A stretch of DNA of 64,000 bases from positions 1 to 64,000 of the forward strand of contig NZ_FMYV01000003.1 in the NCBI RefSeq assembly GCF_900102615.1, written 5' to 3'. The notes under the pieces were generated by a model, which worked only from the letters and a program-made list of their open reading frames with translations, did no database searches and had not been told where the DNA came from. The position numbers were made by a program, and so were the translations under genes. This DNA is from Geotoga petraea (GTDB taxonomy: Bacteria > Thermotogota > Thermotogae > Petrotogales > Petrotogaceae). This document shows, one piece after another, positions 8,528-24,159 of the stretch. How positions within the stretch are numbered: the first letter of the stretch is position 1; the number at the start of each line of letters is the position of its first letter.

Positions 8528-8955
8528 AAATCGAAGGATCTCATAGGTTAATTTTCAAAGAAAATTTGAGTCTCCTCTAAATGTTTTAGAGAAGGGGACC
8601 ACTTTAGTGGTAAGGAGTTTAGGCACTTTGTTTTAGAACAATTTCGAAATATAAAAATTCAAAGTAAGTTATATAGTAGAAATTATTGCATAATTTCTGT
8701 TGGAAGTTGAAAGCATAAAAGCCTAAACACCCCTGTGCTGCGCACGTCCCCTCTAACACATTTAGAGGGGAATTTAAGGATAAAGTCCATGAGTTGGATG
8801 TTGGAAGATGGAAAAGAAGAAATCAGAGATCCCTGTTGTTAGATGCTGGTTGTCAGTTGTTAGAAAAAAGCAATTTTTAAAAATGCACTAAACCAAAAAC
8901 CAAAATGCAGAGCATTTTATAACCAACAACCTCCATCCAGCAACTAACAACCATC
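8523..8955. repeat. Modular hairpin repeat array within the fructose locus
   Basis: No gene lies between the DeoR gene and fruK (457 bases); the space is a mosaic repeat. Hairpins in order are: AATTTTC/GAAAATT (8550-8566), CTCTAAA/TTTAGAG (8575-8591), ACCACT/AGTGGT (8598-8611), AGAAATTAT/ATAATTTCT (8678-8698), GTGC/GCAC (8735-8745), CCCCTCTAA/TTAGAGGGG (8748-8770) and AAAATGC/GCATTTT (8902-8918). Most loops are 2-5 nt. The part 8572-8628 recurs inverted within the same array (8721-8771) and at 21182-21231. The GTTGTTAG-rich part (8834-8951) forms a large imperfect inverted repeat and recurs at 17804-17876. Confidence 0.85.
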
Positions 8956-17789: not shown

Positions 17790-18490
17790 AAATCGAAGAT
17801 TTTGGTTGTTAGATGCCGGTTGTTAGTTGTTAGAAAAAAAGCAGTTTTTAAGAATGAACTAAACCAAAAACAAACAACTATCAACAAATAACAAAATAAA
17901 TTACTTTGTAATTTATTTTACTAGGACATACAATTTTTTAAACGCATTTCACAGCATTCTTTCAGATAAATTTTGTACTATAATTCTCAATAGTTCATCG
18001 CATCTATTTATTATTTTGGATGAAAAAACAAGTATTAAAGGGATAAAAGAATGTCACCCTGAGCATCGTCGAAGGGTCTGATTTTATAAATTTGCGAAGC
18101 AAATTAAAAAGGTTTTAGATTCTTCAGCTCCAAAAACCGTCGTTCAGAATGACATAATACCTAGTTATCTAATAATGTATTAATAAATGAAGAAATATAA
18201 AAAAGAAAAGTATTGGAGTTTTACTGAGTGAAACAGTTTTAAAATAAATTGCTTTGCAATTTATTTTGTTGTTAGTTGGATGATGGAGGTTGTTGGTTTT
18301 TGTATTATTTTAGACATTTAACAATGTTTTTTGCTTCCAACCATAAACCTTCAACAGAAATTGTGAAACAATTTCTACTTTATGACCTACTTTGAGTTTT
18401 TATATTTCGGAATTGAATTAAACTCTTTTAAAATGATAGATAAAAAACTATCAAACCTCCATCCTCCAACCAAGTGAATTGCCTTGGATT
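17785..18490. repeat. Modular hairpin repeat array downstream of the RND exporter
   Basis: No gene is seen here (about 700 bases). The order is: GTTGTTAG-rich module (17804-17876), a 12-bp hairpin with arm AAAATAAATTAC (17893-17919), a tract shared with 20702-20800, a TGTCA...TGACA element (18052-18154) containing AATTTGC/GCAAATT (18089-18105), the TATTGGAGTTTTACTGAG module, a 12-bp hairpin with arm AAAATAAATTGC (18241-18267), and an inverted module with AGAAATTGT/ACAATTTCT (18356-18376). The final 40 bases match those downstream of the other RND gene. Confidence 0.85.
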
Positions 18491-20656
18491 TTATTTTATC
18501 TTTCTCAATATCGTTGGTAATACAGATAAGCTTAGAAAAACTGCAGCTATCATGGAAACCCACATTAAAATAGAAATATACACATGTATTTTTAAAGGTG
18601 AAAAAAGCATAGAAGATACTCCGACTGCAAGTCCTAATGCATTTGCAATTATAGGTCTTGAAGTGTATTTATAAGCTTTGTTTGCAGCTTCTTCAGAATT
18701 TAATCCGCTTTCTTTGTAACTTTTCCAAACAGATGTGAAATGTACTGCATAATCTATCCCTACACCAAGAGTTATAGAAAATATTGTTGTAGTGATTAAA
18801 TTCAAAGATATTCCAGATAACCCCAAGAATCCAAAAAGAATTATTACTGTAGAGGCTATTGGAATGAGGGAAATTAATGCAGGGATAAATTTTTTCAACG
18901 ATATCCATAACAAAAATATTATAAGCCCAAAAGCTATAATCAGACTTCCAACTTGATTTTTTACCATATCTTTGTTTAAATCATACATATAATATTGAAC
19001 TCCAGAAAGACCTATTTCTACATTCTCATCATCATATTCTTCAGTGATTTCTTGTATTGTTTTCAAATCTTCATTTTTAAGACTATTCGGGAAAATAATA
19101 ACTCTCGCTACATTCGATTCTAAATCTAAAAAATTATCTATTGGATTAGATTCAAGTTGATTTATAAAAGTGTTTATAAGGTTTATTTGTAATTGGTTGG
19201 GGTATACAGTTTTATCTCTATTGTATATTTTTTGGTTTAAAATTGAATATATGTCATAAACACTCATAACTTTGTTAACAGAGTCGGTTTCTAAAAGATC
19301 TTTTTCATAGTTTAATATTTTATCGGCGTTATCTTTTGAAAGTATAGTATTATCCGCTTTTAAAAGAGCGAATACAGGAACACTTCCTCCATTTATTTCA
19401 ACAAATTTATTAAAACTTTTATAAATATCCGTATTTTCTCTATAAACCATCAATAAATTAAATTCATTTTGTATTTTAGGGAATAGTATCACTGAAACTA
19501 TAATTAAAACTATTAAAATTGCTAAAGATCTTTTGCCCCACAACCTTTTTATGAAAGAATTTACACCTGTTTTGGATTTTTTTAGTTTTTTTAATTTTAT
19601 TTTACCTGTTAATATAACTGGTAGTATTAGCCAGGTAGCTATTCCAGCAAATGCGATTCCAATTGATGAAAATATGGCTAAGTTATTAACAGCTTTTATA
19701 TTCATAAACAACAATGCCATAAAGCCTGCTATGGATGTAATTGTAGTAATGATCATAGGTATGCCGACCATTTTTAATGTGTGAGAAATGCTATCCAATT
19801 TGTTGTATCCTTCACTTCTAGATTCTTGAATGTGAGATACAAAATGAAGTCCATCAGCGCTCCCTATAACTATGGTAAAAATAGGAGCTAGAACAGTTAT
19901 AAGAGAAACATTTCCCTCTATAACTCCAATTAGTCCGAGAGTCCAAACTGCTGCAACACCAGCTGGTAGAATAGCTAAAAATGTTGATTTTAAACTACCC
20001 ATCTTTATTCTGAAAACAAAAAAGATCAAGAAAAAGGCAGCAGGCGGTAGAAAATACAATATCCAAGTTACATAATCACCTATTTTTTGCTGCATATACA
20101 AATCTCCACTAGCGTAGTAATTATAATTATTCTCAGATAAAAATCCCTCTATTTCTTTTATTTGTTTTAATACAAAACCATCTTTTGGAAAAATTGTATA
20201 AATGGCGTATATTTTATCATCTTTTTTCACTAGAGGCGATAAAGCTGGATAGCTATTGTAATATTCAACAATTTGGGGTAGATCATTTTCGTTTATATTT
20301 GAAATGTTTTTTAATGTTGTTCCGATAGGAATTTGATCTGGAGCTGGTCCGTTAATAGCTCTTATATTGGATATGCCCTCCAGTTTATTTTGTATTTGTA
20401 TCATTTTTTGAAAAATATCCATAGTTAATGTTTTCTTTTCAAACTCAACCATTATAGAAACTTGCTCAGTTGCTGGAAAATATTTTTCCATTTTTTTTTG
20501 ATTGTCTTCGTATTCTGAGCCTTCTACTCTAAAAATATTGAAATCATTCGCAACTTCTATTTGGTTAATACCCAAAATAGCTAGCAATACAGCTAAGATT
20601 AAAAAAATAATTAATGCAACTCTATTTTTAGCAACAAAATTGGTATATTTATTCAT
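18491..20656 (-). CDS. RND/MMPL-family exporter, copy 2
   Basis: A 721-residue inner-membrane exporter of the RND superfamily in its MMPL/Patched-like form, driven by the proton gradient. The two halves each contain one transmembrane segment (about 14-34 and 374-394), a large periplasmic loop, and a block of five more segments. The conserved TM4 and TM10 motifs are IGSADGLHF and GVGIDYAVHF, holding the membrane aspartates. These proteins typically move lipids or hydrophobic compounds; the substrate is unknown. It is a full-length paralogue of the gene at 21375 and lies downstream of it, separated only by a repeat array. No periplasmic adaptor or outer-membrane channel gene is nearby. Confidence 0.9.
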   Translation of the reverse strand: MNKYTNFVAKNRVALIIFLILAVLLAILGINQIEVANDFNIFRVEGSEYEDNQKKMEKYFPATEQVSIMVEFEKKTLTMDIFQKMIQIQNKLEGISNIRAINGPAPDQIPIGTTLKNISNINENDLPQIVEYYNSYPALSPLVKKDDKIYAIYTIFPKDGFVLKQIKEIEGFLSENNYNYYASGDLYMQQKIGDYVTWILYFLPPAAFFLIFFVFRIKMGSLKSTFLAILPAGVAAVWTLGLIGVIEGNVSLITVLAPIFTIVIGSADGLHFVSHIQESRSEGYNKLDSISHTLKMVGIPMIITTITSIAGFMALLFMNIKAVNNLAIFSSIGIAFAGIATWLILPVILTGKIKLKKLKKSKTGVNSFIKRLWGKRSLAILIVLIIVSVILFPKIQNEFNLLMVYRENTDIYKSFNKFVEINGGSVPVFALLKADNTILSKDNADKILNYEKDLLETDSVNKVMSVYDIYSILNQKIYNRDKTVYPNQLQINLINTFINQLESNPIDNFLDLESNVARVIIFPNSLKNEDLKTIQEITEEYDDENVEIGLSGVQYYMYDLNKDMVKNQVGSLIIAFGLIIFLLWISLKKFIPALISLIPIASTVIILFGFLGLSGISLNLITTTIFSITLGVGIDYAVHFTSVWKSYKESGLNSEEAANKAYKYTSRPIIANALGLAVGVSSMLFSPLKIHVYISILMWVSMIAAVFLSLSVLPTILRKIK

Positions 20657-20699: not shown

Positions 20700-21374
20700 A
20701 TAAAAACATACAATTTTTTTAACGCATTTTTATACGGGTACCCACAAGGGGCACCCCTACATATAATTTGTACTATAATTCTCAATAGTTCATCGCATCA
20801 ATTTATTTATTTTTGATAGAAAGCTAAACAAATGTCATCCTGAGCGAACGAAGTGAGTCGTAAGGATCTAATCAGTCAATTTTCGAAGAAAATTTAAAAG
20901 GTTTTATATTCTTCAGCTCCAAAAACCGTCGTTCAGAATGACAAGATACTTAACTATCTAATAATGTATTAAATAATGAAGAAATATAAAAAAGAAAAGT
21001 ATTGGAGTTTTACTGAGTGAAACAATATAAAAATTGATGTTGAAAAACACGGATGTTTTTCATGCGAATTTATCCATGGATGGATAATATGAGCAGTACA
21101 TCAATTTTATTGTTGAACGAGGGTTAAAAAACGACCTACTTTGAATTTTTATATTTCGAAATTGTTTTATTATAAAGTTCCTAAACTCCTCGTCAGCTTT
21201 GCTGCCAATCCTCTAAAACATTTAGAGGATAACCAAATTTTGCAAAGCAAAATTAACTGATGAGATCCTTCGGTTCGTCACTTTGTGACTCTCTCAGGAT
21301 GACATATACAAAGGTTTTCAGCATTATTGTCTTTTCCAACATCCATCCTCTAATCAAGTGAATTGCTTTGCAAT
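20700..21374. repeat. Modular hairpin repeat array between the two RND genes
   Basis: No gene is seen. The array contains a TGTCA...TGACA element (20833-20943) with AATTTTC/GAAAATT (20878-20894), the TATTGGAGTTTTACTGAG module, and the three-way-junction module (outer arms 21030-21040/21098-21108, inner hairpins 21042-21061 and 21070-21087). Inverted copies of the 8523-8670 modules follow, with hairpins CAGC/GCTG (21194-21204), ATCCTCTAAA/TTTAGAGGAT (21208-21230), AATTTTGC/GCAAAATT (21236-21254), GTCAC/GTGAC (21277-21289) and AATTGC/GCAATT (21361-21375). An AT-poor patch at 20740-20760 has GTACC-rich sequence not shared with the other arrays. Confidence 0.85.
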
Positions 21375-23546
21375 TTATTTCAATTTCCTCAATATAGTTG
21401 GTAGAACTGAAAGACTCAAAAATACAGCTGTTATCATTGATACCCACATCATTGTTGAAACATAAACGTGGATTTGTAGAGGTGATAACAACATAGCTGA
21501 CAGTCCAATTGCCAGACCAAATGCATTTGCAATTATTGGTCTAGATGTATATTTATATGCTTTATCTGCAGCTTCTTCTGAAGTAAACCCTTTTTCTTTG
21601 TAACCTTTCCATACTGAGGTAAAATGAACAGCGTAGTCTATTCCAACCCCAAGAGTTATTGAGAATATCGTTGTTGTGATGAGGTTTAAAGATATTCCAG
21701 ATATGGCTAAAAATCCAAAAAGAATTATAACTGTAGATACTATTGGTATTAAAGAAATTAGCGCTGGGATTATTTTTTTCAATGTGATAAATAACAATAA
21801 TAGTATTAAACTAAAAGCTATTATTAAACTACCAGTTTGATTTTTTATCATGCTTTGGTTGAGATCATACATTAAATACTGAACACCGGTTACGTCAATG
21901 TTTATATTACTATCTCTTTCAAACTTATTAGTAATTTGTTGTATTGTTTTTAAATCTGCGTTTTTTAATGATTTTGGAAAAATTATCATTCTTGAGGTAT
22001 TTGAATTTTCTGCCAAAAAATTGTTTACAGGATTTGTTGGGGCTTGTTTCAAGACGTTATTAATTAACATGATTTGTAATTGATTGTTTGGATATTCAGG
22101 TTGTTTTTTGCCGAATAATCTTTGATTTAGTGCGGAGTAAAGGTCATAAACACTCATTGTTTTGCTTACTGCTTCTTTTTCTTCGAGTTCTTTTTGATAG
22201 TTGAGTATTATTTTCGCGTTTTCGCTAGATAATATATTGCTTTCTGTTTTTATGAGTCCAAATACAGGAACACTTCCTCCGTTTATTTCCATGAATTTAT
22301 CGAAACTTTTGTATATATCAGTGTAACTTCTATAAACCATAAGAAGATTGAATTCATTTTTTAGGTTAGGAATAAAAATTATAGAGATAAATAAGAGTGC
22401 AAAAAGAATTATAATAGATTTTTTGCCCCATAATTTTTTTATACCTGTAGATAGACTTTTTTCTTTTTCTTTATGAGTTTTAATTTTTATCTTTCCTGTT
22501 AATATCAAAGGAAGGATATACCAAGTTGCTATCCCAGCAAAACCTATTCCAATTGATGCGAAAATAGCTAAGTTATTTATTGCTTCTGTGTTCATAAACA
22601 TTAGAGATATGAACCCAGCTATAGAAGTTATTGTTGTTACTATCATTGGAATTCCTACCATTTTTAATGTGTGAGTAATGGCAGATAATCTATCATAACC
22701 CTCATTTTTAGCTTCTTGTATATGAGAGATGAAGTGTAGTCCGTCAGCACTACCAATCACTATAGTGAATATGGGAGCTAAGACAGTCACTATGGAAACT
22801 TCTCCACCGAACCAACCAATCAATCCAAGTGTCCATATAGCACCAATTCCAGCTGGAAGAACTGCCAGTATTGTAGCTTTTATGTTTCCCATTTTTATTC
22901 TAAAAACAAGAAATATTAAGAAAAAAGCAGCTGGAGGTAGAAAAGATAAGATCATTTTTACATAATCACCTATTTTTTGTTGCATGTATAAATCCCCAGT
23001 TGCGTAGTATTTATAATTATTCTCTATTAAAAAATTTTCTATTTTATTTATCTCTTCTAACCCAAAACTATCTCCAGGAAAAATGTTGTATATTCCATAA
23101 ATTTTCCCTTCTTTTTGTACTAAGGGAGACATAGCAGAAAGAGTATTATAGTATTCTTTTAATTTATTGATATTATTTTTATTTATATTAGAAATATCTG
23201 TTAATGATCCATCTAATGGGATTTTTTCTGGAGCAGGACCATTTAAAGCTTTAATATTTTCTACTGTTTCAATGTTTGACTGTATTTTAGCCATTTGATT
23301 AAAAATCTCAATATTTAACGAGTTAGATTCAAATTCAACCATAAAAGATATTTGTTCTGTTGTGGAAAAGTATTTTTCCATTTCATTCATGGTTTCTTCA
23401 TATTGAGAACCTTCAACTTTGAATATGTTGAAATCATTTCCCACTTTTATTTGTCTAACTCCCAGTAATGAGAAAATAATTGTAATTATGAAAATTATAG
23501 TTAAAATCAACCTGTTTTTATTCACGAATTCAACGTATTTATTCAT
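21375..23546 (-). CDS. RND/MMPL-family exporter, copy 1
   Basis: A 723-residue exporter matching copy 2 over its whole length, with the same two-half design and the same IGSADGLHF and GVGIDYAVHF membrane motifs. Signature stretches such as GDLYMQQKIGDYV and FKVEGSQYEE align directly with copy 2. The ATG at 23546 has AAGGAGTG 8 nt upstream; an in-frame GTG at 23555 lies inside that site. The start overlaps the TetR stop by 8 nt (ATGAATAA), so regulator and exporter are translationally coupled. Expression should be repressed by that TetR protein and induced by a ligand, probably a transported hydrophobic molecule. Confidence 0.9.
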   Translation of the reverse strand: MNKYVEFVNKNRLILTIIFIITIIFSLLGVRQIKVGNDFNIFKVEGSQYEETMNEMEKYFSTTEQISFMVEFESNSLNIEIFNQMAKIQSNIETVENIKALNGPAPEKIPLDGSLTDISNINKNNINKLKEYYNTLSAMSPLVQKEGKIYGIYNIFPGDSFGLEEINKIENFLIENNYKYYATGDLYMQQKIGDYVKMILSFLPPAAFFLIFLVFRIKMGNIKATILAVLPAGIGAIWTLGLIGWFGGEVSIVTVLAPIFTIVIGSADGLHFISHIQEAKNEGYDRLSAITHTLKMVGIPMIVTTITSIAGFISLMFMNTEAINNLAIFASIGIGFAGIATWYILPLILTGKIKIKTHKEKEKSLSTGIKKLWGKKSIIILFALLFISIIFIPNLKNEFNLLMVYRSYTDIYKSFDKFMEINGGSVPVFGLIKTESNILSSENAKIILNYQKELEEKEAVSKTMSVYDLYSALNQRLFGKKQPEYPNNQLQIMLINNVLKQAPTNPVNNFLAENSNTSRMIIFPKSLKNADLKTIQQITNKFERDSNINIDVTGVQYLMYDLNQSMIKNQTGSLIIAFSLILLLLFITLKKIIPALISLIPIVSTVIILFGFLAISGISLNLITTTIFSITLGVGIDYAVHFTSVWKGYKEKGFTSEEAADKAYKYTSRPIIANAFGLAIGLSAMLLSPLQIHVYVSTMMWVSMITAVFLSLSVLPTILRKLK

Positions 23547-24159
23547 TTTTATCACTCCTTAATCCGTCTAATACTGTTTCTACAATTTTTTCCATTTCTA
23601 TTTCTATGGTTTCTGGTTTAACTTTTTTTTCAATAGTTGCTTTTTCTATAACAGTGTAAATCAAAACACCGAATGTTAATTTTCTAATTATATTGTTATC
23701 TACATTTTTAAATTCCCCGGTTTTTTTACCCAATTCAAAAATAAAATTACTAAATTTTTCCATTTCTTTCCATATATTGTCTAGAAAAAATATTCTTATC
23801 TCTTCATTTACCATCATTTCTTGTAGTATTATTTTTATAATAGGGAAATTTTTTGCTATAAAACTACTTCTTTCTTTAAGAACTTCTTTTAAAAGTTTTT
23901 CTATACTTTGGTCTTTGTGTTTTTTTATTAGAGTTGGAAGAATTTCTTCTGTTGAATATTTTTTGAATTTTTTTATCATTTCTTTTAATATAGATTTTAG
24001 TAAATCTTTTTTGGAATTAAAATATTTAAAAATAGTTGCCTCTGATACTTCTGAACACTCAGCTATAGATTTAGTTGAGGTGTTATCATACCCTTTTTTA
24101 TAAATTAAATCTATTGTACAATCTATTATTTTTTGCTTAGTTCTATCACTTTTTTTCAT
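23539..24159 (-). CDS. TetR-family repressor of the RND operon
   Basis: A 206-residue TetR/AcrR-type repressor. The N-terminal helix-turn-helix spans about 8-55, with the typical GYDNTSTKSIAECSEVSEATIFKYFNSKKDLL. The C-terminal helical ligand domain is lineage-specific. AGAGGTGAT precedes the ATG. It is the first gene of a TetR-RND unit, and a palindromic operator overlaps its own start region (24184-24202), so autoregulation is likely. The ligand is unknown. Confidence 0.92.
   Translation of the reverse strand: MKKSDRTKQKIIDCTIDLIYKKGYDNTSTKSIAECSEVSEATIFKYFNSKKDLLKSILKEMIKKFKKYSTEEILPTLIKKHKDQSIEKLLKEVLKERSSFIAKNFPIIKIILQEMMVNEEIRIFFLDNIWKEMEKFSNFIFELGKKTGEFKNVDNNIIRKLTFGVLIYTVIEKATIEKKVKPETIEIEMEKIVETVLDGLRSDKNE

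Follow-up and report, generated by a model that had tools for sequence, protein, structure and literature searches.

Matched stem changes in dispersed intergenic hairpins of Geotoga petraea and distant phyla suggest that a folded DNA shape is kept

Hairpin-bearing repeats in the window and the genome

The window, the opening 64 kb of C3, a contig of the 2.17-Mb Geotoga petraea genome, contains two tandem MMPL-family transporter genes on the minus strand (18491-20656 and 21375-23555) that are 71-77% alike in the aligned stretches. Parts of the intergenic repeats downstream of these two genes are 91% alike and thus more alike than the genes themselves; the repeats have therefore been homogenised or acquired later. 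Hairpin-bearing intergenic sequence recurs throughout the genome as a dispersed mosaic of small repeats, in which at least three recurring types were distinguished: GTTG caps, H1-H2 hairpin pairs and a 97-136-bp GTCA..TGAC element (Table 1). Many of the repeat copies are fragments, and part of the hairpins are broken. Stretches amounting to 1.136 of the 2.17 Mb were read, the remainder was covered by pattern searches only, and the genus was represented by one genome in the whole comparison. The gene content, the low G+C and the relatives of this genome suggest a place in the Petrotogaceae (Thermotogota).

A sequence-only reading of the window had described nine hairpins whose homologues differ by paired changes in both arms. 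All nine were present and perfectly paired, with loops of 3 nt in eight and of 2 nt at 8598-8611, and the matched arm changes between the compared hairpins were as described. Those at 18089 and 20878 were assigned to element centres, those at 8598, 21194 and 8735 to H2 slots, and those at 17893, 18241, 8678 and 18356 to GTTG caps. The near identity of the flanks that had been reported along with them applied to 18089/20878 (91% over 157 nt), to 8678/18356 only when the two were read on opposite strands, and to 17893/18241, also on opposite strands, for the GTTG side but not for the rest. The single module position proposed for 8598, 21194 and 8735 does exist as a slot, but whole hairpins rather than single pairs are exchanged in it, and broken versions such as ACCACTTTATTGGT occur. 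An assignment to intrinsic terminators, which would have a T run after the hairpin and the orientation of the upstream gene, was rejected: none of the nine hairpins was among the terminator-like sites, and the GTTG and H1-H2 repeats exhibited no gene-orientation bias. The repeat at 20968-21171 has dispersed copies at C1:82968 (97%), C10:45108 (97%) and C7:57974 (91%).

Table 1. Hairpins and repeats located in the window
Feature	Position	Strand	Basis
GTCA element copy 1, 101 bp: GTCA-hairpin, central hairpin, inverted hairpin-TGAC	18053..18153	+	five-copy comparison
GTCA element copy 2, 109 bp; layout as copy 1, stems different	20834..20942	+	five-copy comparison
Copy 1 left terminal hairpin GTCACCCT..AGGGTC	18053..18078	+	fits cross-genome pattern with YY/RR left free
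Copy 2 left terminal hairpin GTCATCCT..AGGATC; outer stem differs from copy 1 by matched changes	20834..20868	+	sequence
Copy 1 right terminal hairpin GTCATTCT..AGAATC, inverted	18118..18153	-	five-copy comparison
Copy 2 right terminal hairpin, inverted; last outer base differs (GAATA)	20907..20942	-	five-copy comparison
Copy 1 central hairpin AATTTGC-GAA-GCAAATT	18089..18105	+	hairpin listing
Copy 2 central hairpin AATTTTC-GAA-GAAAATT; differs from copy 1 in a single pair, with 91% identity of the flanks	20878..20894	+	hairpin listing, alignment
27-nt hairpin capping GTTG-type stretch	17893..17919	- (GTTG side on minus strand)	hairpin listing
27-nt hairpin capping GTTG stretch	18241..18267	+	hairpin listing, GTTG anchoring
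GTTG-capped hairpin AGAAATTAT-TGC-ATAATTTCT	8678..8698	+	hairpin listing, genome pattern search, GTTG anchoring
GTTG-capped hairpin AGAAATTGT-TTC-ACAATTTCT	18356..18376	-	hairpin listing, genome pattern search, GTTG anchoring
H1 hairpin CTCCTCTAAATGTTTTAGAGAAG; pair 3 mismatched (C·A)	8572..8594	+	H1 covariation analysis
H2 slot ACCACT-TT-AGTGGT	8598..8611	+	hairpin listing, slot comparison, H1 analysis
H1 hairpin CCCCTCTAAATGTGTTAGAGGGG	8748..8770	-	H1 covariation analysis
H2 slot GTGC-GCA-GCAC	8735..8745	-	hairpin listing, H1 analysis
H1 hairpin ATCCTCTAAATGTTTTAGAGGAT	21208..21230	-	stem appears on plus strand in hairpin listing
H2 slot CAGC-AAA-GCTG	21194..21204	-	hairpin listing, slot comparison
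Repeat of about 200 bp; ends inverted (GAAATATAAAAA..TTTTTATATTTC), two hairpins in the interior	20968..21171	+	near-identical dispersed copies

Covariation of the stems within and between genomes

Covariation of the two arms exceeds chance. It was strongly supported in Geotoga petraea as well as across phyla. The accompanying proposal that stems evolve faster than their context did not hold in general: the flanks of 237 paralogous pairs diverged by 12%, and 99 of these pairs had identical hairpins, six carried compensated-only stem changes and 53 broken-only changes. The H2 slot is the exception.

In non-coding DNA a hairpin scoring at least 6 adjoined 70 of 139 "GTTG" stretch starts, compared to one after shuffling. 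When sites were anchored on the 3' arm and GTTG only, a perfectly complementary 5' arm was found at 38 of 56 sites versus 0.4 expected. The pattern AGAAATY-N7-RATTTCT matched 19 exact sites genome-wide with the inner positions paired in nearly all of them; the site at C13:18021 carries a single mismatch, and that at C3:203185 is incompletely paired. Matches to this hairpin followed by GTTG in about 85,000 other species were rejected as chance matches; because their inner positions are mostly unpaired, the family appears to be lineage-specific. Loops of 3 nt were present in 63 of 76 GTTG-capped hairpins versus 34 of 152 terminator-like hairpins of the genome. Of 32 clusters of GTTGTT[AG]G stretches, 27 were located on the strand richer in G, putatively the leading one (27:5, p 1e-4), a skew obtained after several patterns had been tried and one that gene strand may confound. 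GTTGG-type stretches were also noted in the neighbouring DNA of two other Thermotogota carriers. Contig ends of Candidatus Woesearchaeota Zod_Metabat.1155 (L129, L177) carry tandem units in which GTTG comes after a hairpin AGAAATTATGAAATAATTTCT; whether by chance or not, these units fit the bacterial pattern.

In the H1-H2 pair, H1 (CTCCTCT..AGAGGAG or CCCCTCT..AGAGGGG) precedes a slot occupied by another hairpin, after which comes GGAGTTTAG or GGGGTGTTTTAG. With the anchor placed on the 5' side of H1 only, pair 8 appeared as A-T, T-A and G-C and was never broken among 12 distinct sequences; double-change cells numbered nine versus 2.7, a value reached by none of 1000 shuffles. At pair 2 both T-A and C-G occurred, and two intermediates were seen, one with C·A and one with T·G. 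In the H2 slot, near-identical flanks enclose entire hairpins that are unrelated to one another, and the interiors vary both within and between genomes; across genomes, 35 of 52 distinct interiors were perfectly paired. In one genome (G037) the stem is either CGGCA/TGCCG or CAGCA/TGCTG, and intermediate A·C forms occur. The H1-H2 frames were detected in eight of 103 Thermotogota genomes, i.e. Geotoga petraea and seven others, and in eight out of 50 genomes taken arbitrarily from elsewhere (at least seven, as a single Nostoc match is doubtful), mainly in Bacteroidetes and Nitrospirae.

The element of about 100 bp is composed of a GTCA-hairpin, a central AATTT hairpin and an inverted hairpin-TGAC, and five copies were found in the stretches read, two in the window (18053 and 20834) and the others at C7:65792, C11:27456 and C2:2915. 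The cross-genome search used the pattern GTCA-YY...RR-TC, in which pairing of the outer YY/RR positions was left free. These positions were pairing-consistent in all 66 copies from eight genomes, which are not independent of each other, while 10,000 shuffles reached at most 50; at least three genomes contained more than one outer-stem type. Four of 103 Thermotogota genomes (36 copies) and four further genomes (30 copies) carried the GTCA frame. The occurrence of both this and the H1-H2 frame was patchy, and the reversed-pattern controls, including those for H1-H2, gave zero matches in the searched genomes. A Bacteroidales genome contains inverted GTCA hairpin pairs about 108 bp apart. In the Bacteroidales carrier G115 (L225, L226, L227), inverted GTCA hairpins enclose a palindrome whose arms are 18 nt long; its centre is CACCCG in one copy and CGGGTG in two, with flanks alike, a clean centre inversion. 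Among the relatives of one carrier (G083) no clean empty site was found, the flanks there being only 66-73% identical.

Processes that may keep the stems paired

The account that we favour, tentatively, is that the hairpins are parts of non-autonomous REPIN-like intergenic elements that are kept for their folded single-stranded DNA form. Dispersed mosaic copies, covariation, inverted terminal hairpins, the presence of two frames in other phyla and strand-specific C-G-closed GNA loops support it. Matched arm changes in repeats of the same layout from distant phyla suggest that what is kept is a folded DNA shape, not letters or an RNA. The stem-loop would stand on a short, invariant foot, which is GTCA at both ends of elements of about 100 bp and a different fixed frame in H1-H2 and GTTG-capped hairpins; its arms may drift while still pairing, as an enzyme or process would act on the folded single strand. 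This folded form would be DNA, acted on during mobility or replication, and the copies able to fold would be the ones that spread. Compensation probably proceeds via single mismatches, because copies with a single A·C or G·T mismatch were seen, and may be aided by copying of one arm from the other.

Read in frame orientation, C-G-closed triloops were GNA and not TNC in about 15 of 16 genome-by-loop cases, according to a post hoc hand tally for which a binomial was computed. DNA hairpins with C-GNA-G loops are unusually stable. The fixed loop orientation suggests that one particular folded strand matters. A closing-pair bias was rejected as a diagnostic, since C-G and T-A closings dominate unique hairpins too.

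No match to a Y1 transposase (PF01797, RAYT-type) was obtained in the 99.75%-complete Geotoga petraea genome, with positive controls recovered, and the enzyme was also absent from several other carriers (e.g. G008, G083, G084 and G088, the last with 23 copies). Membership in the REP/RAYT system was therefore rejected on the transposase feature. A broader proposal, which we regard as unlikely, is that the repeats belong to a cross-phylum class of non-autonomous elements. Recognition would depend on the shape that one DNA strand takes on folding, with a short fixed foot and an often C-GNA-G-capped hairpin whose arms are free to drift, and the enzyme moving the elements would be other than a known Y1 transposase.

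Neutral quasipalindrome correction is a strong rival or helper of the REPIN-like reading, though less probable than that reading as the explanation itself. Under this reading, template switching in replication would copy one arm from the other, by which any mutation would be erased or mirrored and function would be unneeded. Symmetric length changes (AATTTTC/GAAAATT versus AATTTTGC/GCAAAATT, AGAAATC/GATTTCT versus AGAAATCAT/ATGATTTCT), the short 3-nt loops, mismatches without G·T bias, the centre inversion of the Bacteroidales palindrome and the location of most GTTG stretches on the putative leading strand are in line with it, and footprints of this kind have been published for RNA hairpins (PMC8794818). 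Loop inversions, which would be the plainest mark of template switching, were however not above expectation in Geotoga petraea (3 versus 2.2, p 0.38) and gave no proof of it, the GNA loops keep a single orientation relative to the frame across phyla, copies with single mismatches persist, and the process alone leaves dispersal and the fixed frames unexplained. Either side of the choice posed from the sequence, structure selection or template switching, may account for the covariation; the RNA form of selection is disfavoured, and the loop-inversion prediction was non-significant in Geotoga petraea. Two contributors had been absent from that choice, namely the REPIN-like layout of the 100-bp elements and the shuffling of hairpin modules among repeats.

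Such shuffling, in which recombination swaps ready-made hairpins between repeats with shared flanks and compensation is apparent without new paired mutation, explains part of the H2 slot variation and is improbable as the overall account. Copies with few flank mismatches carry entire unrelated hairpins in the H2 slot, and at C8:49526 two known arms have come together in a broken, chimeric hairpin (GGAATTAT-TTC-ACAATTTC), which indicates that recombination between modules also occurs. Shuffling does not create new palindromes, though, and single-pair variants with both mismatched intermediates (H1 pair 2) as well as the covarying outer stems of other genomes argue against it. Selection for RNA hairpins (terminators, mRNA-stability elements or regulatory RNAs) is highly improbable and the least likely of the four readings: covariation is the usual sign of structured RNA and the repeats are intergenic, but an Rfam scan of the window returned zero families at the gathering threshold, the mismatches lacked a G·T bias (five G·T/T·G, three A·C and 13 other, all small numbers), gene orientation was unbiased (GTTG 23 same and 30 opposite, H1-H2 17 and 12), and loop sizes differ from those of the terminator-like hairpins of the genome.

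Relation to known repeat systems

REPs typically carry a GTAG/GTGG foot. The repeats described here have GTCA in its place in all five copies, while two inverted palindromes per dispersed unit were present in these five copies, two of them in the window, and compensated stem changes were found as well. REP/REPIN sequences with their RAYT are likewise scattered through intergenic DNA and share the inverted hairpins, an invariant tetranucleotide at the foot and compensated stems (PMC3116915), and compensatory changes have been called common in REPIN hairpins (PMC3116915); the differences lie in the GTCA foot, the missing Y1 transposase and the much greater variability of the stems inside a single genome. 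Matched changes that keep perfect stems and an occasional centre inversion are also shown by template-switch hairpins (Monttinen and Loytynoja 2022, PMC8794818), but these are rRNA and microRNA hairpins followed in phylogenies, whereas the present ones are dispersed repeats, without enrichment of loop inversion in Geotoga petraea. Bacterial stem-loop sequence families (PMC2267715) are intergenic repeats with a common stem-loop that were set by within-species sequence similarity, unlike frames that recur across phyla with differing stems. Fungal mitochondrial double-hairpin and palindromic elements resemble the present repeats, by the description given where they are cited (PMC7218506), as short, putatively mobile intergenic palindromes, but are organellar. 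Integron attC sites, which fold imperfectly, carry R boxes and go with an integrase, may serve as an analogy only.

Palindromic repeats with compensated stems are already known. The two frames, the cross-phylum recurrence with host-specific stems and the occurrence without a Y1 transposase were not found described in the literature searched; searches for the repeat strings returned unrelated papers only. Functional RNA is routinely considered proven once covariation is seen. The present repeats equal structured RNA in the strength of their covariation without an RNA signature and hence constitute a natural warning case, as well as a test bed for how DNA keeps stems paired. If the shape itself is indeed recognised, they would represent an undescribed mobility system common to distant bacteria.

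A protein-based search of genome contigs for relatives found none. A genome of another genus of the same family (G008) contains a homologue of the window module 17930-18030 (CTCAATAGTTCATCGCAT..) at 5800-5900 of L052. A CRISPR-like array with the repeat ATCTAACATCAATAATGATTATATTTAAAT is located at C1:57410-63238. Contigs C1, C10 and C11 share one stretch near base 200, close to the contig start, and the assembly thus seems to break in a long repeat.
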